DNA of 22,867 nt, taken from positions 1 to 22,867 of IMG/VR virus record IMGVR_UViG_3300028844_005808; one strand, written 5' to 3'. The position numbers and the translations under genes are program-made. The notes under the pieces were generated by a model. It made no database searches, had not been told where the DNA came from, and saw only the letters and a list, made by a program, of their open reading frames with translations. Within the stretch, counting starts at the first letter, position 1, and each line of letters begins with the position of its first letter. Shown here piece after piece: positions 5,539 to 20,102 of this stretch. The DNA comes from a virus.

Positions 5539-5792
5539 ACAATTGGGACGACCTCTTGACACCGCCGGGCGTTGCCGCGCCTTCACCGACTGAGGAAGTC
5601 GACAGAATGTACGCGCAGGTGTTTGGCACCAAGTCTGGCAGGAAATTACTGACGCACCTGCGAGCGCAAACCATCGAGCAGCCAACCTGGTATCCCGGTG
5701 AGGAAGCCAGCCATGGTTACGCCCGCGAAGGGCAGAACAGTTTGGTGCGCGAAATTGAGCGTCGAATCAAACGAGCAAGGAACTTTACATGA
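5535..5792 (+). CDS. Bbp19-like small phage protein
   Basis: The 85-residue product has the conserved core of a family I associate with Bordetella phage BPP-1 Bbp19: RMYAQVFGTKSGRKLLTHLR, then QPTWYPGE, then YAREGQNSLVREIERRI at the C-terminal end. These proteins are encoded between portal and scaffold in many podoviruses and are presumed to act in head assembly, but I know of no mechanism. The start is GTG at 5535 in a GTGA overlap with the portal stop; the end makes an ATGA overlap with the scaffold gene. The length is normal for the family. Confidence 0.8.
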   Translation: MNNWDDLLTPPGVAAPSPTEEVDRMYAQVFGTKSGRKLLTHLRAQTIEQPTWYPGEEASHGYAREGQNSLVREIERRIKRARNFT

Positions 5793-6589
5793 TTGATGAG
5801 CAGGAAGACGCCGCCAGTGCTGGCGAGCCGGAGACCCTGTTAAATGTCTCCGCCACCGAAGAGCCCACAGAGAAACCCAATGATGATCCGCCGCACATTA
5901 TCCAAGAAACTGACACGCTTGTACCGGAGCCGCAGGCTGTGGCCGATAACGGACGCCCTGCATACATTGAAGACCGCTTTTTTAAGGATGGGAAGGTGGA
6001 TGTTGAGGGCTTGGCGGGCGCTTACAAGGAACTGCGCAGCTTTATGGACAGCGGCAAACACAAGGCTCCGAAGGACGGTCAATATGATCTCACGTCTATC
6101 GAAGAACTAGATGCGGAGAGTCCGCTTCTCGAAGGCTTCCTTTCTTTGGCCCGTGATAAGGGCTTATCGCAGGACGCAGTTGAAGACATTACGCGATTCT
6201 TCGTCTCGACCCAGGGAGAGGAAGCACTCCAGCAAAGAATTGACCGCGACGAAGAAATGAAAAAGCTTGGACCCAATGGGCGCAATCTGATCAAGCTCAA
6301 TGAGGATCATCTCAAGCGCCTGCACACTTCCGGCATTCTGACCAAGGCTGAGCTGGAAGAGGCTGCAAACATGACGCAGACCGCAACAGCGCTTTCTGTG
6401 ATGAACAAGCTTCGCATGATCGGTCACGAGCCGACCATTCCTGGCGGCAGCATCTCACAGCCAGAGACCATCACAGTTGACGATATCAGCAACATGGTCG
6501 CTGACGCTAAGTACGCTAACGACCCGGCCTATCGGAAGATGGTCGAGCGCAAGGCGTATGAGGCTTACGGCGAGGCCCCACCAGCTTAA
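5789..6589 (+). CDS. Scaffolding (capsid assembly) protein
   Basis: Scaffold proteins nucleate the prohead and leave before DNA fills it. The 266-residue product has the usual features: a long acidic N terminus (Glu, Asp, Pro-rich, residues 1-60), a DRFFKDGKVDVEGLAGAYKELR segment (split here as a helix around residues 60-80), a KAPKDGQYDL linker, a central charged helix LGPNGRNLIKLN, and a C-terminal conserved part with a final basic/aromatic helix (YRKMVERKAYEAYG). The position directly before the capsid gene fits. ATG at 5789 follows AAGGA (5777-5781) and overlaps the previous stop. Confidence 0.88.
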   Translation: MIDEQEDAASAGEPETLLNVSATEEPTEKPNDDPPHIIQETDTLVPEPQAVADNGRPAYIEDRFFKDGKVDVEGLAGAYKELRSFMDSGKHKAPKDGQYDLTSIEELDAESPLLEGFLSLARDKGLSQDAVEDITRFFVSTQGEEALQQRIDRDEEMKKLGPNGRNLIKLNEDHLKRLHTSGILTKAELEEAANMTQTATALSVMNKLRMIGHEPTIPGGSISQPETITVDDISNMVADAKYANDPAYRKMVERKAYEAYGEAPPA

Positions 6590-7912: not shown

Positions 7913-7932
7913 TTCCTTTGCTGCGAGGGCAC

Positions 7933-8556
7933 ATGGCCACTGGCGATACCAAGCTTTCAATATGCTCGGACAGTCTCATTATGCTTGGCTCGTCACCGCT
8001 CTCATCGTTCTCTGAGGGCACTGACGCAGCGCAGATTACCGACCGGCTTTACGACGATCTTCGTGACACGATCCTGCTTTGCTACCCCTGGTCGTTTTCA
8101 CTTAAGAAAATACAGCTAGCCCGCAGCGTTGACGCGCCGACGACCGAGTGGCGTTACAAATACCCGCTTCCCTCAGACATTCTTGGCAGTGGCCCCCGCG
8201 CGCTATTTACAAGCAGCGACGTTGGCGCACGCCCGGTTACTGATGGCTGGGCCATTTACGGCTCGGACATTCAAACCGACCTGACGACAATTTATATCTC
8301 TTACCAGCACAGCCCGTCAGAAGATGTGCTGCCAGCCTATTTTGTGCAGCTCCTGAAATACTGGTTGGCATGGCATATAGCCGAGCCGGTAACGGACCAG
8401 ATCATCAAGGCAGAGTATTACCAGAGCCTGGCCGTGGGCAGTCCCAGCGAGAACATGAGGGGCGGGATGATGCGTCAGGCTATGCAGATCGACGGCTCAA
8501 CCCGACCTGTACAGGCCTTTACCGACTTCCCCTTACTCGCCGCGCGCGCGTCTTAA
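7933..8556 (+). CDS. Tail tubular protein A (gp11-like adaptor)
   Basis: This is the head-to-tail adaptor ring of T7-like tails. The 207-residue product shows the family layout: LSICSDSLIMLGSSPLSSF near the N terminus, TDRLYDDLRDTILLCYPWSF (about residues 40-58), then YKYPLPSDILG, a beta-strand region ending in ISYQH, and the helical part YFVQLLKYWLAWHIAEPVTDQ. The C-terminal FTDFPL is also usual. I chose ATG 7933 because the family starts there and GAGGG lies just before it, although the spacing is short; a TTG at 7918 would add five residues. The nozzle gene follows after three bases. Confidence 0.88.
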   Translation: MATGDTKLSICSDSLIMLGSSPLSSFSEGTDAAQITDRLYDDLRDTILLCYPWSFSLKKIQLARSVDAPTTEWRYKYPLPSDILGSGPRALFTSSDVGARPVTDGWAIYGSDIQTDLTTIYISYQHSPSEDVLPAYFVQLLKYWLAWHIAEPVTDQIIKAEYYQSLAVGSPSENMRGGMMRQAMQIDGSTRPVQAFTDFPLLAARAS

Positions 8557-8559
8557 CGC

Positions 8560-10542
8560 ATGTCTAGGGTCGTCCGTATCCAGACCGATTTTATCAACGG
8601 TGAGATTGATCCGTTGCTGCGCGCCCGCATTGATCTCAAGCAATATTATTCTGCCCTGCAGACTGCGAGCAACGTATTCATTCTGCCACAAGGCGGTGTG
8701 AAGCGACGTGATGGTTTGAAATTTGTATCGCAGCTTCCAAGTGCCGCTGCCCCGCAAAACGGCGTTCGACTGATCCCGTTCGAGTTCAATACGTCAGACA
8801 GCTATATGTTTTGCCTGACCCATCAGCGCATCTACATCTTTCGTGCTGGCGCTCTCGTGACAAATATCAATGGCACGGGCAACGACTTTCTTGCCGTGAC
8901 CACGCTGACTTCGGCGATGTTATCGACCGTGCGTCATGCGCAAAGCGCCGACACTATGATTTTACTGCATGAGGATCTAGCGCCGCTATCCATCGTGCGT
9001 GGCGCGTCACACACTGCCTGGACGCTCGCAACAATTTCGTTCAGCAACCCGCCGCAGCATGCGTTCACGCTATCGACCAGCAGCCCATCAGCCACCCTGA
9101 CGCCATCAGCAGCTAGTGGGAACATTACCGTCACCGCTAGCGGCAGTGTTTTTGCATCGTCAAATGTCGACCAGTATATCAACCTGACCACCAGCTTTGG
9201 TCGGCTGCGAATTATCGAGTTCATCAGCGCCACAGTTGTCAAGGCCTTCGCTGAAGTCCCACTGTTTGACACGACCGTAGTGGCGTCGGGCAACTGGCAA
9301 CTTGAAACCGGCTATGAGGACGCGTGGTCGGCCTCGAAGGGCTACCCAAAGTCTCTGACCTTTCATGAAGGCCGTCTTTATTTTGGCGGGGCCAAGTCGC
9401 TTCCCACAACCTTCTGGGGCTCTGTCGTAAATGAGTTCTTTAACTTCGACTTTGGCGAGGCCAGTGATGACCGCGCGCTGCAGGCCACGATCACGACCGA
9501 AAGCCTTAATGCAATTGTCGATATCTTTTCCGGTCGCGACCTGCAGATTTTCACGACTGGTGGTGAGTTCTACGCCCCACAATCAACCAACAATCCAATC
9601 ACCCCAAGCAACCTGGCTGTGCGCTCGGCAACCCGCAACGGCGCTAAGATTGGTGTGCCCGTTGTAGGCCTGGACTCAGGCACGATGTACATCCAGCGCC
9701 AGGGCAAGCAGCTCAATGAGATGGCGTTTACCGACGCAGAATTGAGTTACACCTCAGCAAACATTTCGCTGCTATCAGGCCACTTGCTCAAGTCTCCTGC
9801 TGACATGGCAATTCGTCGCGCTACCAGCACAGAAGAGGCCGACCGACTGTTTATTGTCAACTCAACTGACGGGTCGATGGCGGTGTTCTCACTGCTTCGT
9901 TCGCAGCAGGTTGTCGCGCCATCGAGCGTAACGACTGATGGTGAGTTCGAGGCCGTCGCGGTCGACGTTGATTCCATTTACACGGTCGTCAAGCGCACCG
10001 TGGCGTCAACTGCAGTCTATTACGTCGAGGTCTTTGACGCCTCGCTACACACTGACTCAGCAGTCTTTAGCAGTTCGGTCGCAAGCACGGGCACTGCGGC
10101 CCACCTGGCAAGCGAGACGCTAGACGTTATTGTGGACGGCAATGTGCAGGCGCAGAAAACTGCAAATGGCAGCGGCGTTGTAACCTTCGACCGCGCGTCC
10201 GCAACCAATTTTGAGATTGGCCTGCCATTCACCCTTGCGGTCAAGACGATGCCGCTAGATCCACGACTTCAAAGCGGACCAATCAAGGGCTTCAAGAAAC
10301 GTGTTGTCCAGGTCAACGCCGATGTGTTCGAGACGCAGGCAATGTCAATTAACGGTCAGCAGGTTGCCTTTCGCCATTTTGGTGAAGATGTCCTCGACAA
10401 ATCTGTGCAGCCATTTACCGGCGTGAAGAAGGTTGGGCCTTTGCTCGGCTTTGTTGACGAAGGCACCATCGAGGTAACACAGAGCGCTCCGCTCGACATG
10501 ACGGTTCTAGCGCTCGATTACCAACTGTCAGTGGGGCAATAA
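8560..10542 (+). CDS. Tail nozzle protein (tail tubular B-like)
   Basis: The 660-residue protein has the conserved N terminus of podoviral tail nozzle proteins: FINGEIDPLLRARIDLKQYYSAL is the region around residues 12-33, followed by NVFILPQGGVKRRDGLKFV. The phrase LTFHEGRLYFGGAKSLPTTFWGS (about residues 265-290) and SLNAIVDIFSGRDLQIFTTGGEFY are beta-propeller segments. The last third is a beta-rich platform with FKKRVVQVNADVFETQAM. It forms the tube that carries fibres and DNA. It starts with ATG at 8560; no ribosome site is visible, so translation may depend on the adaptor gene ending three bases before. No sign of truncation. Confidence 0.88.
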   Translation: MSRVVRIQTDFINGEIDPLLRARIDLKQYYSALQTASNVFILPQGGVKRRDGLKFVSQLPSAAAPQNGVRLIPFEFNTSDSYMFCLTHQRIYIFRAGALVTNINGTGNDFLAVTTLTSAMLSTVRHAQSADTMILLHEDLAPLSIVRGASHTAWTLATISFSNPPQHAFTLSTSSPSATLTPSAASGNITVTASGSVFASSNVDQYINLTTSFGRLRIIEFISATVVKAFAEVPLFDTTVVASGNWQLETGYEDAWSASKGYPKSLTFHEGRLYFGGAKSLPTTFWGSVVNEFFNFDFGEASDDRALQATITTESLNAIVDIFSGRDLQIFTTGGEFYAPQSTNNPITPSNLAVRSATRNGAKIGVPVVGLDSGTMYIQRQGKQLNEMAFTDAELSYTSANISLLSGHLLKSPADMAIRRATSTEEADRLFIVNSTDGSMAVFSLLRSQQVVAPSSVTTDGEFEAVAVDVDSIYTVVKRTVASTAVYYVEVFDASLHTDSAVFSSSVASTGTAAHLASETLDVIVDGNVQAQKTANGSGVVTFDRASATNFEIGLPFTLAVKTMPLDPRLQSGPIKGFKKRVVQVNADVFETQAMSINGQQVAFRHFGEDVLDKSVQPFTGVKKVGPLLGFVDEGTIEVTQSAPLDMTVLALDYQLSVGQ

Positions 10543-10543
10543 A

Positions 10544-11113
10544 ATGACGATGACAGCCGTACTTATCGGCTCTGCAGCTTTCAGTGCGGTAGGCAAGATC
10601 CGTGAGGGGCAGGCCCAGAAAGCCCAAATGGACGCTGCTGCCCAGCAGGTTGAAATACAAGGGCGCAGCCAAAAACTGCAGATGCGTCAGCAGGCAATTC
10701 AGAGCCGACAGCAAAGCGTAAACGTGCTGGAAAAGGTGCGGCGCAACCTGTCGACAGTCAACGCATATGCCAGCGCGGGCGGGCTCAATCCTTTCTCTGG
10801 CAGCACTGGCAGTCTGATGACCACCAACCTGGCTCGTGGGGCCAGAGACTTTTACGCCTCGATGGATGCCGTCGATATGGCCACCCAGAATATGGAGATC
10901 GCACAGGGCGCGGCTTCGTATCAGGCCCAGATTTACAGAAGCGCTGGCAAGAATGCTCAGCGGCAGGGCTATTTCAATGCGGCTGCGAGCCTTGGGCAAA
11001 ACGCCTATAGCGCATATGACGCAGGTCTTAACCCATTTGGCGGCGGCAGTAGCACTCCAACAGGACCTAACGTCCGTCCATTGCCCGGCCAGTCATACGG
11101 GTCATATTACTAA
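10544..11113 (+). CDS. Internal virion (ejection) protein, gp14-like
   Basis: The 189-residue product begins with a short hydrophobic, Ala/Gly-rich segment (TAVLIGSAAFSAVG), then has an alanine/glutamine-rich helical stretch (about residues 20-65, QAQKAQMDAAAQQVE). A conserved VNAYASAGGLNPFSGS motif follows, and the C terminus is Gly/Pro/Ser-rich. This plan is that of the small ejection protein of T7-like phages, which goes into the outer membrane or periplasm to build the DNA channel. The start is one base after the nozzle stop, and the stop overlaps the next ATG in TAATG (11111-11115). It is the first of the run of ejection proteins. Confidence 0.82.
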   Translation: MTMTAVLIGSAAFSAVGKIREGQAQKAQMDAAAQQVEIQGRSQKLQMRQQAIQSRQQSVNVLEKVRRNLSTVNAYASAGGLNPFSGSTGSLMTTNLARGARDFYASMDAVDMATQNMEIAQGAASYQAQIYRSAGKNAQRQGYFNAAASLGQNAYSAYDAGLNPFGGGSSTPTGPNVRPLPGQSYGSYY

Positions 11114-14100
11114 TGGCCCGCATGCCGATATACCAGGAGACTGGCGCGCCAGCAGTCACCCCCATAACGCCACCCACCGTTGATCAGGCTGGGCTGCGGA
11201 TGCAAACCGCTGGGTATACAAACCTGGCTGAAGCATCCCAGCGCGTCGTCGACTTTGCCCTGGCAGAGAAAACACGCCAGTCCGAAGTGGCGGGTGCTGC
11301 CGAAGGCGCTCGCAACCCATTTGGCGTGCTGGACGAATTGGAAGGTAAGGTGTTGCCGACTGCGTATGACCGCAGCGCCCTCGACACTGCAACACGGTTT
11401 GCCGTAGCAAAGATTGGCAACTCCACAGAGTTGCAGATTTTGACCGCCATTAGTGACGCGCAAGAAAACGGTCTCGACCCGGCAGATCTCAACGCCAGAA
11501 TTTCGGGCATTATAAGCGGTGCCTCAGACGCGACTGGCTCAGTAAGCCCTGACGCTGCGGGCGCTCTGATGATGGAATTGCGCTCCTACGCAGCCGCAAA
11601 CAGCCTGCAATACCAGGGGAATTACCTGAAACTGCAGGAAGCTGAAAACCTTGATGAATGGAAGGTTGGTGTGCCTGGCGTTTTTGTGGAGATTGCGTCA
11701 CTTGTAAGGCAGGGCAATCTAGAAGGGGCCAATAATAGGCTTAAAACATTTGAGGAAAATGCCACTGACCTGGGCATTGATTCCGCACTTATAACTGAAC
11801 AGTTGTTCAAGATGAAACAGGAGATAGCGCTTGCCAACGTGGAAACCATGTTCGCGAATGCTGATACTTTTGAGCAGCGCAACGAAATAAGGGAGCTAGT
11901 GTTTAACGCTGCTTATGGTGACGGGCGAGACGAATTACTTGACGGCTTAAACCAGACGCAAATTGAAAGCCTGATTGGCACGCTTGGAAATCTAGAAGCT
12001 CAAAATCAGGAAGGTTTTGGAGTGTCGGCGGATCAAGCCATGCTCATGATTGAGCAGCAGGTGCGAGCAAACGACGTAGATGGCGCACGCCTGTCCCTGG
12101 AAGAATTCGAAAGACAAGCTGTGGAATCTGGCGTTTCGCCAGTTGTTTTGGCCGAGCGGATGCTCGACATGAGAGCCAAAATAGATATTGCTCACGTCGA
12201 AACTTTGTTTGCGCGGGCCCTTACCATTGAAGATAAAAACAAAATTAGAGAAATGCTACGCGAAGCCGCCTACGGGTCTGGCGAAAGCAATTTGGTTGAT
12301 AATTTATCGCATGGGCAAGTTCGCGCTCTGATAACCCGACTGGGCAACATAGATCTTAGTGAGGAGATTGCGGCTGCAGAGGCCGCTGAGGCCGCAGCCG
12401 ATGAAATCGTTGATAATGTTGAGAAACAAGTTGAGGTTTTATCTGACCTTGCCAGAGGTGAGATTGAATTAAGTGGTGTCGTTACCCCAGCTACGATGGG
12501 CAAACTTGATACGTATTTATCAATGCTGCCAGAGGCAGAAGCATTCGATATAAGATTGAGGCTTAATTACGAAAAGGAGATATACAATTATCCTACTGAA
12601 ATTCCAAATAATATAATTTACGGCAACCCTAACTCAATTTTAGACGACCTTAATAATCGATATAATAGAAGCAACATTACGACGTACGAGCAGGGGTTAA
12701 TACAGGACGCGATAACACGCTTCCAAACTATTAGGGACGCGCAATTAACTGAGTTCAATGAGGATCAACCAAAATACATTCAGGATTATCTGCAAAAGCA
12801 GATCGACGCCGGTATCCCAGCGTTTAGGGATGCTGCAGCCCTTGCTATAGACGGTGACTCAACTGCGTGGCTTAAAATTCAGGAAGACGCGGGCCTGCCG
12901 CTGAACCAGCAGACAATCGTTCCTGTTCAGTTTATGAGTATGCTGTTGGAAACTATACTTTCCGGCGAAGACCCGTCCGGGGCTAAGGTTGATGGCACAC
13001 CTCTCGTCGGCTACCTGGATGAACTTACATCAAACTCACCAGACAACCTGGTGCTCTTTCAAAATGCAATAAGGCTGGCTGGCGGTAACGACGATTTGGC
13101 TCTGGCTGTAGAATTGTACGGCGAGACTGGTGCACTTGCAGAAATCTTTAACGCATATGTTTGGGGAACGACCAACGATGCCGATGCGGCATTGAAGGAC
13201 GTAGTTCCCGACACTTACACGTCAGTAGGCGATTACCGGAATGCTGTTCGAGAAAAGGTGTTTGATGCATTCGAACCACTGTTTCAATCGTATATCAGCG
13301 CTGGTGCCGACCAGGGTCTCGTAACCCAAAGGGCTACGCAGTTTACGAACGCTGTAATGACTGCCCTTGCGAGAGACGGAAGTTTAGAACCTGACAACCT
13401 CATCAAAGCTATGGTTGGGCATTTTAGTAATTATGAGTTTTACGATGGGGCAGTGGAACCTGGCGACAGAGGCATTGTTCTTTATGTTTCATCTGACCAA
13501 CCTAACTTCCGACTGCCTACAGAATTAACCCATCTTATAGATCAGATTACAGATGACCAAAATAGCATTTCCGCACAGATCGATAATGGCCAGGTGCAGC
13601 TTACTGTTCCTCCTTTAGTACCTCAGCTACTTAATCTTGGACCTGAAGGTGGCAGAGGAAATGTCAGAAGTAATGAGATGTTCCCAGAAGTAACTGTGGA
13701 AATGTCGGAATTAGAACTGGGGCTTGTGAAATATCATCGTGAGCAGCTCACAAATGGCACTTACTTAGACGACGATCAAGGCATGACATCTGTCAATATT
13801 ATGGGTGTAACGGGTCCAAATGGCGACATATACAACGTCCCAGGCTTTGCTGACGGCAGACGGCTTACGGAACAAGAGGCATTTGACAACGCGGCAGCAA
13901 TGGGATGGGACAACTTCCAGTCATACCCTGCCGACTCAACCGTGCCTAATGACGAACATCCAGCCAACCTCGCAGCTCAGAGAATTCACGAACAAATAGA
14001 CATAGACGGCCAAGAGTTTTTATCGGTTTTGAATGAGGCAAGACGCCAGAGCTATAAAGGCTGGACGGATTTAGTTATCGAAGACGGCTACTGGGGCAAT

Positions 14101-14196
14101 GTCGATGACGGCACGTTGCGGCTGTTTCTGGAGGGCCATGTGGTACTCGACGCTAATGGCAATTTTATTGACATTGCCATTCCGTCTGGCAACTAG
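11113..14196 (+). CDS. Large internal virion (ejection) protein, gp15-like
   Basis: This 1027-residue, mostly helical protein occupies the gp15 place between the gp14-like protein and the membrane-active ejection protein, and probably lines the DNA channel in the periplasm. Residues 1-60 resemble the N terminus of many such proteins (PTVDQAGLRMQTAGY). Residues 198-293 and 317-412 are an ungapped tandem duplication, about 40% identical by eye, both containing NVET/HVETxFA and NAAYG/EAAYG. An Ala/Glu-rich coil follows at 418-435. Around residues 893-965 (NVPGFADGR, RIHEQ) lies a small domain of a type often appended to phage ejection or transglycosylase proteins. No transglycosylase active site is seen. 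The section from about 11,700 to 13,800 is much richer in A+T than the rest of the window. Confidence 0.8.
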   Translation: MARMPIYQETGAPAVTPITPPTVDQAGLRMQTAGYTNLAEASQRVVDFALAEKTRQSEVAGAAEGARNPFGVLDELEGKVLPTAYDRSALDTATRFAVAKIGNSTELQILTAISDAQENGLDPADLNARISGIISGASDATGSVSPDAAGALMMELRSYAAANSLQYQGNYLKLQEAENLDEWKVGVPGVFVEIASLVRQGNLEGANNRLKTFEENATDLGIDSALITEQLFKMKQEIALANVETMFANADTFEQRNEIRELVFNAAYGDGRDELLDGLNQTQIESLIGTLGNLEAQNQEGFGVSADQAMLMIEQQVRANDVDGARLSLEEFERQAVESGVSPVVLAERMLDMRAKIDIAHVETLFARALTIEDKNKIREMLREAAYGSGESNLVDNLSHGQVRALITRLGNIDLSEEIAAAEAAEAAADEIVDNVEKQVEVLSDLARGEIELSGVVTPATMGKLDTYLSMLPEAEAFDIRLRLNYEKEIYNYPTEIPNNIIYGNPNSILDDLNNRYNRSNITTYEQGLIQDAITRFQTIRDAQLTEFNEDQPKYIQDYLQKQIDAGIPAFRDAAALAIDGDSTAWLKIQEDAGLPLNQQTIVPVQFMSMLLETILSGEDPSGAKVDGTPLVGYLDELTSNSPDNLVLFQNAIRLAGGNDDLALAVELYGETGALAEIFNAYVWGTTNDADAALKDVVPDTYTSVGDYRNAVREKVFDAFEPLFQSYISAGADQGLVTQRATQFTNAVMTALARDGSLEPDNLIKAMVGHFSNYEFYDGAVEPGDRGIVLYVSSDQPNFRLPTELTHLIDQITDDQNSISAQIDNGQVQLTVPPLVPQLLNLGPEGGRGNVRSNEMFPEVTVEMSELELGLVKYHREQLTNGTYLDDDQGMTSVNIMGVTGPNGDIYNVPGFADGRRLTEQEAFDNAAAMGWDNFQSYPADSTVPNDEHPANLAAQRIHEQIDIDGQEFLSVLNEARRQSYKGWTDLVIEDGYWGNVDDGTLRLFLEGHVVLDANGNFIDIAIPSGN
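11704..12348 (+). repeat. Internal tandem domain duplication in the gp15-like gene
   Basis: The two copies are 11704-11991 and 12061-12348, each 96 codons, with a constant offset of 119 residues and no gap. Landmarks shared at the same offset are VR-G-A near the start, VET-F-A, IRE, AAYG and LGN at the end. I count 39 identities of 96 by eye. The DNA copies have diverged too far to be recent, so this is an old duplication kept for function. Confidence 0.8.
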
Positions 14197-14198
14197 TC

Positions 14199-16067
14199 AT
14201 GGGCCAGCCATACGTTCCTACGCTTGGTAAAGACGACCCATACTCGCGCGCTATGGGCCTTGGCATTCCCCAGCCCGGTCGCTTTGAGTCAATGGCCACG
14301 TCGGCTTTAACCATGCTTATAGAAAGCCCAACACAATTCCTGCGTGAGCAGCTCTTCAACGTCCAATTTCTGGAAGGCGAAACCACCGCGCCACCAGACA
14401 CCTTCGGCATGCAGGGCCCAGGGCCGGGTGGCCCGATGGGGTCCCTTGACCGAGGTTATAACTCTCCGCTTGTTCAAGAAGCACGGGCACCGGAGCTTGA
14501 GCGGCTGGCTGCTGAGAACCCACTTATTGCAGCGCATGAACTAAACAAAGAATTTGAGCTAATCGACCTGTCGTTTGATCAGCCTACAACCCGGCTGCAC
14601 GCAAACTATTTGGCAGAGCGGCGTATAAGGCAGTTGCGGCTCGAGGCTATTATTGCGGCTGGCCCGCAAGACGCGACGCAAATTACACTGAACCTGATTG
14701 CAGGTTTTGGCGCTGCTTTGACTGACCCGATCAATGTGGCCTCTGCATTTCTTCCAGTAGTCGCCACGGCAAGGGCGTTTACAACGCTACAAAGGATTGG
14801 CCAGTTTCTGCCGGGTGGGAGAACGTCAAGAAGGGCGCTTCAGGGCGCGGTTGAAGGCGCTGTTGGCGCAGCGGCCGTTGAGCCATTCATTTATTTGGGA
14901 GCGGCCGACACTGGTTGGAATTACACTGTTTACGATAGCATGCTGAATATCGTCTTTGGCGCTGGGGGAGGCACTATTTTGCAACCAGTTGCTGGCAAGG
15001 TTGGTGATATTAGCGATGCCCGAGGACGCGCGGCATCAGTGCGCTACGAGACTAACTTTAGAACTGTCATTGCCCAGATTCTTGAAGGCCGACCAACTGC
15101 CGTCAGTCCTGTTGTCAACCCCCCAACCCCGCGCGCTAGAACGCCCATCGAAGCTGCAGTTGATGCTCCTTCTCCTGTCGCTGCGGCTGATGCCCCTTCT
15201 CCTGGCGCTGCAGTTGATGCTCCTTCTCCTGTCGCTGCGGCTGACGCCCCTTCTCCTGGCGCTGCAGTTGATGCTCAACCAGCAAATGTCGACACCTCAT
15301 CAGTACCTGTGCTGAGCGACGCAGGTGAAGTCATTGCGTACACGCGCATTGATGAGGCCGCAGTTGCTGCGCGCGGCACCCCAAACGCGCAGGTTCTGCG
15401 GACGCCTGACGGTCGCTTAATCGTGGCAGTGCAGCGCGCTGACATTGTGCCCACAAGGCACAAACGGCATGCCACAGAGGCCGAGGCTGATGCCGCTGTT
15501 GTCGCGGCAAGAAAGAAAGACCCGGACCTACAGGTCGTGCCTATACGCAACAAGGCCACGGGTGAAATTGAGGAATATGGCTTTGCTCGCGGCGTGACGG
15601 CTGATGAGGCGCTGGCCATGCGTCAAGGCGCGTCGCCGGTTGACGGCCCTATGACGCTAGATGACTTTTCCGACGCTGGTCGGGCAGAAGTTGAAGCTGC
15701 AAGCCAGCGGATGATTGATGATGCCGGGCCTGACGGCCCTATGACGCTAGATGACTTTTCCGACGCTGGTCGGGCAGAAGTTGAAGCTGTAAGCCAGCGG
15801 ATGATTGATGATGCCGCGACTAATCGCAGCCAACAGACCACAGACCAAACTGCCGAGCAGGCGGCGAACAACGAGCGTTTGGCAGGCACTGAGATAGAGC
15901 CGAGCGTTGCTGATATCGAGCAGGAGATCGCTGCTGCAGAAGTGGCGAGCGACGGCAAGACAGACGCCGACCTTGCGAGGCTGCGGGAGATGGATAAGGA
16001 CATTGAAGATGCGAAGAATTACGAGGCCGTTTTGAATGAAGCGCTGGTCTGCCGGAGGGTTGGCTAA
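14199..16067 (+). CDS. Membrane-active ejection protein, gp16-like N-terminal part
   Basis: The 622-residue product follows the gp15-like gene after two bases. Residues 160-195 hold a hydrophobic, Ala-rich region with LTDPINVASAFLPVV, and residues 208-225 hold EGAVGAAAVEPF, a phrase typical of phage DNA-ejection proteins that insert into the inner membrane. Then come a Pro/Ala linker made of 9-residue repeats (319-359), a SNase-unlike mixed domain with a RKKDPDLQVVPI segment, and two copies of a 30-residue acidic module (482-541). The end is a Glu/Ala-rich helix. A transglycosylase motif is not visible, unlike T7 gp16. Its TAA overlaps the ATG of the 819-residue partner, which suggests they act as one ejection apparatus. 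Confidence 0.72.
   Translation: MGQPYVPTLGKDDPYSRAMGLGIPQPGRFESMATSALTMLIESPTQFLREQLFNVQFLEGETTAPPDTFGMQGPGPGGPMGSLDRGYNSPLVQEARAPELERLAAENPLIAAHELNKEFELIDLSFDQPTTRLHANYLAERRIRQLRLEAIIAAGPQDATQITLNLIAGFGAALTDPINVASAFLPVVATARAFTTLQRIGQFLPGGRTSRRALQGAVEGAVGAAAVEPFIYLGAADTGWNYTVYDSMLNIVFGAGGGTILQPVAGKVGDISDARGRAASVRYETNFRTVIAQILEGRPTAVSPVVNPPTPRARTPIEAAVDAPSPVAAADAPSPGAAVDAPSPVAAADAPSPGAAVDAQPANVDTSSVPVLSDAGEVIAYTRIDEAAVAARGTPNAQVLRTPDGRLIVAVQRADIVPTRHKRHATEAEADAAVVAARKKDPDLQVVPIRNKATGEIEEYGFARGVTADEALAMRQGASPVDGPMTLDDFSDAGRAEVEAASQRMIDDAGPDGPMTLDDFSDAGRAEVEAVSQRMIDDAATNRSQQTTDQTAEQAANNERLAGTEIEPSVADIEQEIAAAEVASDGKTDADLARLREMDKDIEDAKNYEAVLNEALVCRRVG
15153..15275 (+). repeat. 54-bp tandem repeat encoding a Pro/Ala linker
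   Basis: Copy 1 is 15153-15206, copy 2 is 15207-15260 and a partial third is 15261-15275. Copies 1 and 2 differ at one base (GAT/GAC). Each unit is itself two diverged 27-bp halves coding AAVDAPSPV and AAADAPSPG. The unit is a multiple of three, so gain or loss keeps the frame. It probably forms an extended flexible linker. Confidence 0.9.
15641..15816 (+). repeat. 90-bp direct duplication, nearly identical
   Basis: 15641-15726 and 15731-15816 agree over 86 bases except for one change (C at 15700, T at 15790). The repeat spacing is 90 bp, 30 codons. The module begins DGPMTLDDFSDAGRAEVEA and ends with MIDDA. The almost perfect identity, including third codon positions, indicates a recent duplication or gene conversion. 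Confidence 0.93.
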
Positions 16068-18526
16068 TGCCGTCAACGACTGAATGCATAGCGCGCCTGC
16101 GCAAAATAAAGCCTGATATTACGGATGCCGAGATTGAGGCCGCGTTTGACGATGTTGACAACATCCTTACACGCACAGGTCATAGCGGGCAGGAGCGACA
16201 CGCCAGAGACCTCATCAAGGACAAATCGTACGAGGCGTACCTGCAAGCGTTAATTCTCAAGCGCGACTTTTTGGCCAACCGTGCCAAAGCTGCTGAATTG
16301 CTGGCCTCTGTTGAAGGTGCAAAAACTCCTGGCGATGGCGTCTCCGAAACACTGGCCGGATCGAATACGCCCCGCGCTGGTAAAATTACGTCGGTTGAGA
16401 CCCGTCAGAAAGCAATCGAAGCTGACCTTGCGAGTCAACTGGTGGAGAAGCTCGACAAGGCGGGGCTGACAGGAGTGTTTGCGCGCGGCGAGCTGGACCG
16501 TCAGATCTCAATGGAAATGTTTGAGATGCGGCCAGGCGGCACGCCGGGAATTTCAGGCAGTAAAGACGCGCGAAAGATTGCTGAGATCCTCAAGGGTATT
16601 AATGATCAATCGCTCAGAATGCTGAATGACGCTGGCGCATTTATCCGTAACATGGACGGCTATATCGTTAAGCAATCGCACAGCCAGGATAAGTTGCGCC
16701 GGTCCACCTTTGACGAATGGCTCGCTACGATTGAGCCTTTACTGGACCCAAGAACCTTTGATGAAATGGCTGGCCCGCAGACGCCCGCACGGCGCAGGGA
16801 GTTTCTGCAGGAAATACACACGGCGCTAGCGTCTGGCATTCACATCAAGTCAACAGGCGATAGCGCTGATGCGTTGTCTGGTTTCAAGGGCCCTGGCAAC
16901 CTCGCCAAAAAGATCAGTCAGGGGCGTGTCATTCATTTCAGGAATGGCGCTGCCTGGCACGATTACAACGCCAAGTATGGCGTTGGCAATCTAAGTGCTG
17001 CCGTGATGTACGGCATAAGAAATACGGCCAGAAGCGCAGGTTTGATGCGGGTCTACGGCACCAATCCGCAGAACGCATTTGAAACATTGCTGACGAAGCT
17101 GAGGGAAACACACAGAAGCAACAGCAAATTCGTCGCCAGTTTGGAAAGCTCAACACTGAGATGGCAAATGGCCGTAGTTGACGGCACTGTGGATCAGGTC
17201 GGTGGAAGCGCGACTTTCGCTGCAATTGCCCACACCATTCGCTCAGTGCAATCCATGGCCAAGCTGGGAATGGCATCGCTTTCCTCGTTTGCAGATTTCG
17301 GATTGGCGGCGGGCGAACTGCGGTTTCAGGGCAGCGCAGGTGGCCGTGTGTCATCACTTAAGGGCATGGCGAGCGGTCGGCGGAGCACTGAGTTTCGGGC
17401 GGCTGCGGACAGTCTTGGCGTCGGTCTCGACGGGACACTGGGCCATATCGCATCGCGATTTAGCACTGAGGGCGATGTGCCTGGCCGCATGTCGAAGATG
17501 ATGACCACGTTCTTCAAACTGAACGGTTTGCAGTGGTGGACGGACTCGCTCAAGCGCGGTGTTGGTGTGCAGATGGCTTATGACCTGGCAGTTGCCGCAA
17601 CCCGCACGTTTGACGCCATGGACCCAAAGCTTCGAGGATTACTGCAGCAGTATGACATTAACGCGCGTGAGTGGGACGTCATTCGGCAGGCCCCGCTAAA
17701 GATGGCTGATGGGCGGCGTTATCTAAGCCCTGACGGCATTGCCGATCTGAGTGACGATGTCATTGCCAACTATCTTGGCAGGACAGATGCGTCAGCAAGC
17801 ACGCTGCGCCGCACGCGCGACGACCTAAGCCAGCGCTTGCGCGGGTACATTATGGATCGCGTTGACTACGCGGTTATCACGCCGGGTGTACGTGAGCGCG
17901 CCTACATGACGGTGGGAAAGCAGCGCGGGACGATTGGCCGTGAAATGGTGCAAACCCTTATGCAGTTCAAAGGGTTTCCACTGTCAGTAATCATGCGCAC
18001 GTTGGGCCGGGAAGTTTATGGGCGCGGCAACTGGAAGAAAGGCGTCGCGCCTATCGTCGGGCTTATGGTGGAGCTGACGGCACTCGGTTACATCGCAGAT
18101 TCCGCCAAGCGCGTTTTCAAAGGTGAGGAACCGAGAGACCCAAGGCTATGGAAGACGGTCTTGGCGTCATCGCTGCAGGGTGGCGGGCTTGGTTTGTTTG
18201 GCGATTACCTATTTGCCGACCTGAATAGATATGGGTCGAGCGCTCTGTCTTCTATTGCCGGACCAACATTTGGCACAATCAACGATCTCATGGGGGTTTT
18301 GAGCGGGCTTACGCAAGAGGGTGAGTTCCAGGGAGCTAAGCTTGCACGCCTTGGAATTAATAACACGCCGTTCATTAACCTGTTTTATACGCGGGCCGCG
18401 CTTAATTATTTGTTCCTCTACCAGATACAGGAATCGCTGAGCCCTGGGTATTTAGGCAGAACCGAAGACCGCCTCAATGAGCAAGGTAGTGGTCGGCTAT
18501 GGCCAATGACCATGGCGTTTGACTAG
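16067..18526 (+). CDS. Large internal virion protein, gp16-like C-terminal part
   Basis: This 819-residue protein starts at ATG 16067 inside the preceding stop (TAATG). Its N-terminal 50 residues form a short helical module (CIARLRKIKPDITDAEIEAAF). The later half matches the conserved C-terminal part of large podoviral internal proteins: ITPGVRERAYMTVGKQRGT, LMQFKGFPLSVIMRTLGRE (about residues 625-645), and then a chain of hydrophobic helices from about 655 to 750 (VAPIVGLMVELTALGY, SSIAGPTFGTINDLMGVL), then NNTPFINLFYTRAALNYL. It probably crosses the inner membrane during DNA ejection. Together with the 622-residue protein it adds up to 1441 residues, about the size of one T7-like gp16. The stop is followed by a 61-base gap before the fibre gene. 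Confidence 0.78.
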   Translation: MPSTTECIARLRKIKPDITDAEIEAAFDDVDNILTRTGHSGQERHARDLIKDKSYEAYLQALILKRDFLANRAKAAELLASVEGAKTPGDGVSETLAGSNTPRAGKITSVETRQKAIEADLASQLVEKLDKAGLTGVFARGELDRQISMEMFEMRPGGTPGISGSKDARKIAEILKGINDQSLRMLNDAGAFIRNMDGYIVKQSHSQDKLRRSTFDEWLATIEPLLDPRTFDEMAGPQTPARRREFLQEIHTALASGIHIKSTGDSADALSGFKGPGNLAKKISQGRVIHFRNGAAWHDYNAKYGVGNLSAAVMYGIRNTARSAGLMRVYGTNPQNAFETLLTKLRETHRSNSKFVASLESSTLRWQMAVVDGTVDQVGGSATFAAIAHTIRSVQSMAKLGMASLSSFADFGLAAGELRFQGSAGGRVSSLKGMASGRRSTEFRAAADSLGVGLDGTLGHIASRFSTEGDVPGRMSKMMTTFFKLNGLQWWTDSLKRGVGVQMAYDLAVAATRTFDAMDPKLRGLLQQYDINAREWDVIRQAPLKMADGRRYLSPDGIADLSDDVIANYLGRTDASASTLRRTRDDLSQRLRGYIMDRVDYAVITPGVRERAYMTVGKQRGTIGREMVQTLMQFKGFPLSVIMRTLGREVYGRGNWKKGVAPIVGLMVELTALGYIADSAKRVFKGEEPRDPRLWKTVLASSLQGGGLGLFGDYLFADLNRYGSSALSSIAGPTFGTINDLMGVLSGLTQEGEFQGAKLARLGINNTPFINLFYTRAALNYLFLYQIQESLSPGYLGRTEDRLNEQGSGRLWPMTMAFD

Positions 18527-18587: not shown

Positions 18588-20102
18588 ATGGCTGATTATC
18601 CAATAACCGCAGTTGACCGCCGGGTAGTTTACTCGGGCTCGGCTGGCACCGGGCCCTATGCATTCAGCTTTCCCGTGCTGGTCCAGACGGACCTTGCCGT
18701 GTACGTCAACTCGACCTTAAAAACGTTGTCGACGCACTACACGGTCAGCATTAATTCATCAACAGGCGCTGGCACTGTGACGCTGGTAGACGCTGCATCA
18801 GGCTCTGACACGGTCACGATTGTCGGCGCGCGTGCCATTCAGCGCACGACGGACTTTGTAACAGCCGGTGACCTGCTTGCATCGTCACTGAATGTTGAAC
18901 TCGACAGCCAGACTATCTTTGCCCAACAGGTGTCAGAGGATGCTGACCGCGCCATCAAGGCTCCGGTTACTGACCCCACAAGCATTAACATGACGCTGCC
19001 AGCCAAGGCTGATCGTCTCGGCAAGATACTGGGTTTCAACTCATCGACCGGCAACCCCGAGGCCACGACCGGTCGGGTCTCTACCGTTACAGTATCGACC
19101 TCGACCGTTGGCGCTGGCGGAAGCGCGACGGGATCTGCGTCCTACACCGAAAGCACGGGCGCTCTAGCCCTTGCCCTTGGCATCCCGACCGGCGCGACTG
19201 GCTCGACTGGGGCGGCAGGTGCTGATGGCGTGTTCACAGCCATTGCCTCTGAGTCAGAGGCGACGACTGGTAGCAACAACACCAAGGGGATGACACCTCT
19301 GCGCGTCAAGCAGGCGGTCGATAGCTATGGCCTGCTGGGTGCCAACAACTTATCTGATGTTGCCAACGCGGGAACTTCGCGGACGAACCTTGGCCTGGGC
19401 ACAATGGCGACGCAGGCAAGCGGCTCTGTCTCGATCTCCGGCGGCAGCGTCACTGGTATTACTGACCTGGTAGTCGCTGATGGCGGCACGGGTGCCAGCT
19501 CGTTTACCGCTAATGGCGTACTTCATGGCAATGGCACTTCAGCCGTTGGTGTGACGGCAACCGGCAGTAGCGGTCAGGTGCTTACATCGAACGGCAGTGG
19601 GTCTGCGCCCACGTTCCAGGCAGGCGCAGGTGGTATTCAGCTTGCCACCATGCAGGCCAGCACCAGCGGCACAAGCATCGACTTCACCTCGATTGCAGCA
19701 GGAACGAAACGCATCACCATCATGTTCGCAGGCGTTTCCACGACCGGAACCAGCGATGTGATTGTGCAGCTAGGTGACTCGGGAGGCGTTGAGGCTACCG
19801 GCTATAGCGGCAACAATGTTGACTCGACCCAAAGCGGCGGTGTCGTCAACAACACAGGATTCATCCTCAATAATCTGCAAGGCGCGGGTGACGGCGCTGA
19901 TGGAGCGGTGACGTTGACGCTCATGGACGCCGATACGTTTTTGTGGGTTATGACCTCCACAATGTCTGATGACGCAAGTACGAATGTCTTCTGGACCTCT
20001 GGCACCAAGACACTCTCAGCCGAGCTGGATCGGGTTCGCATCACGACAGTCACTGGCTCGCAGACCTTCGATGGCGGCGCAATCAATATTGCTGTGGAGT
20101 GA
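18588..20102 (+). CDS. Tail fibre protein with T7-type N-terminal domain
   Basis: The 504-residue fibre binds the host surface. Residues 1-145 fit the T7 tail-fibre N-terminal domain that attaches to the tail: VVYSGSAGTGPYAFSFPVL, then HYTVSINSSTGAGTVTL, TDFVTAGDLLASSLN and AQQVSEDADRAIKAP. A short collagen-like stretch (GIPTGATGSTGAAGADG, 198-214) and repeats of Asn-Leu-Ser-Asp/VADGGTGAS follow (253-305). Residues 350-504 form a beta-rich tip domain (SGTSIDFTSIAAGTKRITIMF, LDRVRITTVTGSQTFDGG) shared by many phage fibres. Separate leader and strong ribosome site suggest its own expression level. No chaperone or host-range switch is visible beside it. Confidence 0.9.
   Translation: MADYPITAVDRRVVYSGSAGTGPYAFSFPVLVQTDLAVYVNSTLKTLSTHYTVSINSSTGAGTVTLVDAASGSDTVTIVGARAIQRTTDFVTAGDLLASSLNVELDSQTIFAQQVSEDADRAIKAPVTDPTSINMTLPAKADRLGKILGFNSSTGNPEATTGRVSTVTVSTSTVGAGGSATGSASYTESTGALALALGIPTGATGSTGAAGADGVFTAIASESEATTGSNNTKGMTPLRVKQAVDSYGLLGANNLSDVANAGTSRTNLGLGTMATQASGSVSISGGSVTGITDLVVADGGTGASSFTANGVLHGNGTSAVGVTATGSSGQVLTSNGSGSAPTFQAGAGGIQLATMQASTSGTSIDFTSIAAGTKRITIMFAGVSTTGTSDVIVQLGDSGGVEATGYSGNNVDSTQSGGVVNNTGFILNNLQGAGDGADGAVTLTLMDADTFLWVMTSTMSDDASTNVFWTSGTKTLSAELDRVRITTVTGSQTFDGGAINIAVE

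Follow-up and report, generated by a model that had tools for sequence, protein, structure and literature searches.

A tandem domain duplication in a probable gp15-like ejection protein of a short-tailed phage known from environmental DNA

RESULTS AND DISCUSSION

A short-tailed phage carries a genuine tandem duplication of a domain in what is probably a gp15-like tunnel protein, one of several changes in module number in this family; a longer injection tube is a plausible outcome, and adaptation to the host is unproven. The whole stretch of DNA analyzed, hereafter the window, is a virus record of 22,867 bases (IMGVR_UViG_3300028844_005808) from a phage known from environmental DNA only.

ORF A contains two abutting copies of a 119-residue module

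The best ungapped self-diagonal of ORF A lies at an offset of 119 and pairs residues 176 to 309 with residues 295 to 428, with 46 of 134 positions identical and a BLOSUM62 score of 224. The second-best diagonal scores 38, and the best diagonals of 200 shuffled proteins average 39 with a maximum of 51, so that the similarity is far above background and the duplication at this spacing, proposed in the initial annotation, holds. The repeat unit, which we call module X, is 119 residues long and the two units abut, with copy 1 spanning residues 176 to 294 (11638..11994, + strand) and copy 2 residues 295 to 413 (11995..12351, + strand), together window positions 11638-12351. They are identical at 44 of 119 residues (37% at the amino acid level and 49% at the nucleotide level), values from which we conclude that the duplication is not a recent one; in blastp the two units match each other with an E value of 1e-27. 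The region noted earlier, 11704-12348, corresponds in frame to residues 198 to 412; its two cores of about 96 residues (198 to 293 and 317 to 412) are identical at 39 of 96 positions and each carries the VET-F-A, IRE, AAYG, and LGN landmarks described for it, but they are parts of a longer unit. When the whole of ORF A was compared with itself by blastp, only the full-length match was reported and the internal repeat was unlisted, which we put down to the program's handling of nested matches since the two units alone do match.

Both copies are also recognized from outside the window. An HMM of X built from 14 relatives, with the window excluded, matches copy 1 at residues 193 to 289 (23.8 bits, iE 1e-7) and copy 2 at residues 296 to 377 (14.4 bits, iE 9e-5). 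Neither copy is more than 25% identical to the X of any of the 21 relatives compared, against 37% between the copies themselves, as a tandem duplication requires, and in a tree of X sequences, which includes one row with a very long branch (L137), the two window copies are sisters with support of 100/99. The tandem duplication in ORF A is thereby confirmed.

Gene order and the fold of a relative point to a gp15-like protein

The window holds a podovirus structural cluster in the order terminase, head-tail connector, tail tubular A slot, tail tubular B, gp14-like ORF, ORF A, ORF B, ORF C, and fibre. The tail tubular A slot is occupied by a tail protein (7918..8556, + strand; phrog_394, E 1.5e-27), after which come tail tubular protein B, the nozzle (8560..10542, + strand; phrog_376, E 1.7e-128), and a gp14-like internal virion protein of 189 residues (10544..11113, + strand; phrog_418, E 4.5e-5), for which Pfam T7_gp14 at 25.9 bits narrowly misses its cut-off of 27. 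ORF A, with 1027 residues (11113..14196, + strand), directly follows and is in turn followed by ORF B (14199..16067, + strand; 622 residues), which matches phrog_3003, a family of unknown function, at E 1.4e-20, by ORF C (16067..18526, + strand; 819 residues), which matches phrog_684 at E 1.7e-176 and is annotated in Pelagibacter phages as "putative internal virion protein," and by the fibre (18588-20102). A nozzle, a gp14-like ORF, and then ORFs A, B, and C form the gene order expected around a gp15-like protein. Two large ORFs lie downstream of ORF A (14199-18526) where T7 has only gp16. Within ORF B, 90 nt (30 residues) are duplicated in frame and in tandem at 15641-15820, and at 97% identity this duplication is apparently recent; a 27-nt repeat array at 15153-15287 encodes an Ala-Asp-Ala-Pro-Ser-Pro-type linker.

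ORF A has no match in Pfam, PHROG, or NCBIfam. T7 gp15 (PDB 7k5c, 6yt5, 7eyb) shares with it the position after gp14, but at 747 residues it is shorter than the 1027-residue window protein and shows no detectable sequence similarity to it, and no sequence-profile match between the two was found. The predicted model of ORF A is poor, with a pLDDT of 47.5 overall and of 57 to 89, by blocks of ten, in residues 31 to 300; in Foldseek it gives no match at E <= 0.001, designed helical proteins coming out on top. Its N-terminal residues 54 to 243 nevertheless align with gp15 residues 60 to 259 (Z 8.2, 184 residues).

The model of the single-copy relative L005 is better (pLDDT 80.9), and its best Foldseek match among 350,542 PDB chains is T7 gp15 (7k5c_A, E 1.5e-3, probability 0.92; the next match is at 9.3e-2), with TM-scores of only 0.15 to 0.17 and an rmsd of 27. 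VIA aligns residues 55 to 727 of L005 with residues 60 to 701 of gp15 over 410 residues (rmsd 20.6) at a Z of 7.0, a value in the range that the tool calls common for helical proteins and which unrelated helical chains also reach. Like gp15, the L005 protein is modeled as a mostly helical rod, and their alignment keeps to the chain order from near one end to near the other. The models of ORF A and L005 also both match the octameric ejection protein of Pectobacterium phage PhiM1 (8vb2_E) and chains of the cyanophage A4 pre-ejectosome (9k2v); the PhiM1 protein is described in PMC11440229 as carrying a lysozyme-like domain, whereas none was found in ORF A. Because the fold scores are modest, the case for gp15 rests on the Foldseek rank, the end-to-end order, and the gene position taken together, and on this combination ORF A is probably gp15-like. 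The name that the initial annotation gave the protein is thus supported by position and by the fold of a relative and finds no counterpart in sequence profiles.

The helix order predicted for the two copies is similar, copy 2 being modeled only at a pLDDT of 37 to 61. Copy 1 has helices at residues 203 to 219, 224 to 249, and 253 to 268 and a long helix at 281 to 322, and copy 2 at 329 to 338, 343 to 368, 372 to 389, and 392 to 409 and a long helix at 416 to 447. The helices at 224 to 249 and 253 to 268 recur at 343 to 368 and 372 to 389; the others correspond less exactly. In the L005 model, X is formed by helices at 206 to 218, 223 to 248, and 252 to 263 and a long helix at 275 to 315, and a following module, Y, by helices at 322 to 335, 338 to 357, 362 to 378, and 382 to 408, in an order similar to that of X. 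In the near one-to-one numbering of the L005-gp15 alignment, the gp15 hinge (305-306) falls between the two modules, with X just ahead of it and Y directly behind. We tried X and Y as one sequence family and rejected this (hhalign probability 1.9%), only the helix order being alike.

Module number has changed repeatedly among relatives

Searches of viral contigs and phages with ORF A alone found no relatives, and the L005 homologue searched against phages likewise found nothing, so tail tubular B and N-terminal profiles served to collect them; a search with ORF C gave no viral loci, and one with the portal gave none in viral or genome contigs. One tail B search kept its best 80 matches, and the set is a sample. 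Among the matches listed, 216 loci have tail B, and 170 of these have an ORF of at least 400 residues in the gp15 slot, picked by position and size and not by homology, of which 114 are distinct and 101 complete. Exact duplicates were removed and near-identical ORFs retained (such as L129/L130, L143/L144, and L124/L141), a cut contig may count twice, and the window is not among the 114.

Of these 114 distinct ORFs among the matches listed, 23 match X or Y below an iE of 0.01, the remaining 91 not being scorable; X is matched in 21 (iE <0.01) and twice in none. The first ∼290 residues of ORF A are common to relatives at 23 to 35% identity. A profile of 15 relatives, made without the window, aligns its positions 2 to 288 with window residues 1 to 288 (156.0 bits) and aligns a second time, through positions 195 to 361 of its X-to-Y part, with window residues 313 to 492 (13.1 bits), which indicates that a single copy in the relatives corresponds to two in the window. 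Counting copies in related phages, a check suggested with the initial annotation, thus gave one X in each scorable relative against two in the window.

The window protein differs from its expanded relatives in that it repeats X and they repeat Y. The uncultured relatives L129/L130, L005/L124, L144/L146, L052/L148, and L074 have the same cluster and the same N-terminal ∼290 residues, and each has a single X, together with one Y in L129/L130 and L005/L124, two in L144/L146 and L052/L148, and three in L074. The L074 protein (contig positions 5265-6230) has its three Y copies in tandem at residues 312 to 420, 426 to 521, and 529 to 633. Two Y copies are found by HMM in L146 and L052, the second Y of L144 is seen by alignment to L146 (291 to 413 against 292 to 407, z 43.5), and in L148 the halves of the stretch 300 to 546 resemble each other (z 7.2). 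The tail B tree joins the window to the single-X pair L129/L130 (100/99), and on it the expanded state takes five changes, at least four of them forced by well-supported branches; the count is approximate as tail B and ORF A may differ in history. Whatever the count, the window's gain of X and L074's gain of Y are separate events, and as far as these sequence comparisons go, the gp15-slot protein of this phage group has undergone repeated changes in module number. The nearest relative by tail B (L002, 80%) is not scorable, its contig ending 129 residues into ORF A.

Y was not detected in ORF A, and residues 414 to 1027 have no significant match in any relative. The window protein is thus unlike T7 gp15 both in having X twice and in a C-terminal part matching nothing found. 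Methylophilales phage MEP301 (gp26) and the Pelagibacter phages HTVC and Skadi have a cluster order similar to that of the window, and tail tubular B of MEP301 is 49.8% identical to the window's; their gp15-slot proteins have no significant X or Y. L003 and L136 reach ∼985 residues without an extra X or Y. A C-terminal stretch matching phrog_3108, of unknown function, is present on the gp15-slot proteins of L136 (8578-8934) and L144 (12170-12637) and absent from the window protein.

ORF A lies in a fast-diverging part of the cluster

In matches at E 1e-3, the window and L130 are 84% identical in the capsid, 75% in the best piece of gp12, and 49% in gp14, against 36% in residues 1 to 175 of ORF A, 31% over 81 residues in X copy 1, and 26% in ORF C; X copy 2, ORF A residues 414 to 1027, and ORF B have no match at this threshold. 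Judged from these identities, ORF A lies where the cluster diverges most quickly, with ORFs A, B, and C changing far faster than the capsid and tail genes.

Third-position GC content (GC3) is 0.62 over the first 175 residues of ORF A and drops to ∼0.46 beyond them (11638-14196), the 14 other ORFs examined lying between 0.53 and 0.70. The relatives L134 and L003 also show a drop (0.57 to 0.48 and 0.44), and L130, L124, L074, and L144 show no clear one; since two of the six relatives have a similar drop, it is weak evidence that the downstream part of ORF A is foreign or recombinant.

A proposed longer tube and its alternatives

On our preferred reading, ORF A would be the equivalent of T7 gp15, a mostly helical rod that is packaged in the virion and, once ejected, lines the passage of the DNA through the periplasm, and its body would contain a series of helical-bundle modules linked by long helices that neighboring modules share. 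T7 gp15 is described in PMC8954989 as having a hinge at 305/306, a height of ∼200 Å, and a width under 30 Å, and X would sit at the end of the stretch that matches the rigid N-terminal part, just before this hinge. X would have been copied by an in-frame tandem duplication, either in the window lineage or in a phage from which the downstream portion of the gene was acquired, and the second copy would add a storey to each protomer, so that the assembled tube would be longer by about one module (∼37 Å). This figure is a crude scaling by arithmetic on published values, applying ∼642 resolved T7 residues over ∼200 Å to 119 residues. The long helices between modules hint at axial stacking, and a longer periplasmic tube from an extra module is plausible; we infer that copy 2 folds like copy 1, stacks along the axis, and lengthens the tube, and any advantage of this would be inferred in the same way. 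Because the fold evidence is modest, we give this reading a probability of about 0.5.

More tentatively, the gp15-like tunnel proteins of this group may be modular rulers: the periplasmic tube would be built of stacked helical bundles, and lineages would make it longer or shorter by gaining or losing complete storeys in tandem, X in the case of the window and Y in that of L074, L144/L146, and L052/L148. If true, this would help to explain the large size variation of gp15 homologues, which range from 431 to 982 residues among 14 phages (PMC8954989). How the injection tubes of short-tailed phages are fitted to envelopes of different depth is an open question, and natural one-, two-, and three-module variants within one family would allow a direct test of module number against tube length. 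We searched titles and abstract openings, not exhaustively, and found none on module duplication in ejection proteins.

The strongest alternative, which we consider rather unlikely, is that the second X is tolerated and provides no useful tube length, ejection genes duplicating and diverging readily and the additional bundle being neutral, forming a bulge, or making contacts between protomers. The tandem duplication and repeat array in the adjoining ORF B, the fast divergence of ORFs A, B, and C relative to the capsid and tail genes, and the identity of only 37% between the X copies would all fit such a history. The open frame is however kept in both copies, both are still recognized by the X profile of the relatives, and gains of whole modules recur in other lineages.

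It is improbable that ORF A is another ejection protein of the cluster and not the gp15 equivalent, with the module lying outside the tunnel wall. The lack of any database or T7 gp15 profile match and the presence of three large ORFs in place of the gp15 and gp16 of T7 would be compatible with this, as would the naming of the slot protein as lysozyme or structural lysozyme in related records, but ORF A comes directly after the gp14-like ORF, L005 has T7 gp15 as its first-ranked Foldseek match, and the VIA lists also include the ejectosome chains 9k2v, 8vb2, and 7eyb. PMC8954989 notes that most gp15 homologues are identified by their size and syntenic position and that they may bear lysozyme domains.

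Least probable is the proposal of the initial annotation that module number is adjusted to host envelope depth, which independent whole-module gains in several lineages would fit as selection on length, but against which stand the wide differences in gp15-slot size among phages of one host strain and the fact that the module-bearing loci have no known host. In seven cultured phages of Pelagibacter HTCC1062 this protein has 580, 589, 606, 709, 749, 902, and 977 residues (HTVC010P, with a gp15 slot annotated in fragments, was left out of the count), and host alone therefore does not fix its length. Part of the spread is explained by hydrolase domains, since two of the longest proteins carry C-terminal domains, a lysozyme domain in Skadi-4 and an SLT domain in HTVC024P (L070 and L219), in a Pfam scan that covered the set except for Lederberg, Baldr, and HTVC034P. 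Adaptation of module number to the host envelope is so far not supported. An internal duplication in the Skadi-4 protein (score 61) is not claimed, the maximum of 30 shuffles being 59.

ORF A is also strongly acidic, with a net charge of -92, or -9.0 per 100 residues; the median of the relatives is -0.7 and the lowest value among the 114 is -6.7. A short ORF at 5789-6589 in the window equals ORF A in acidity per residue.
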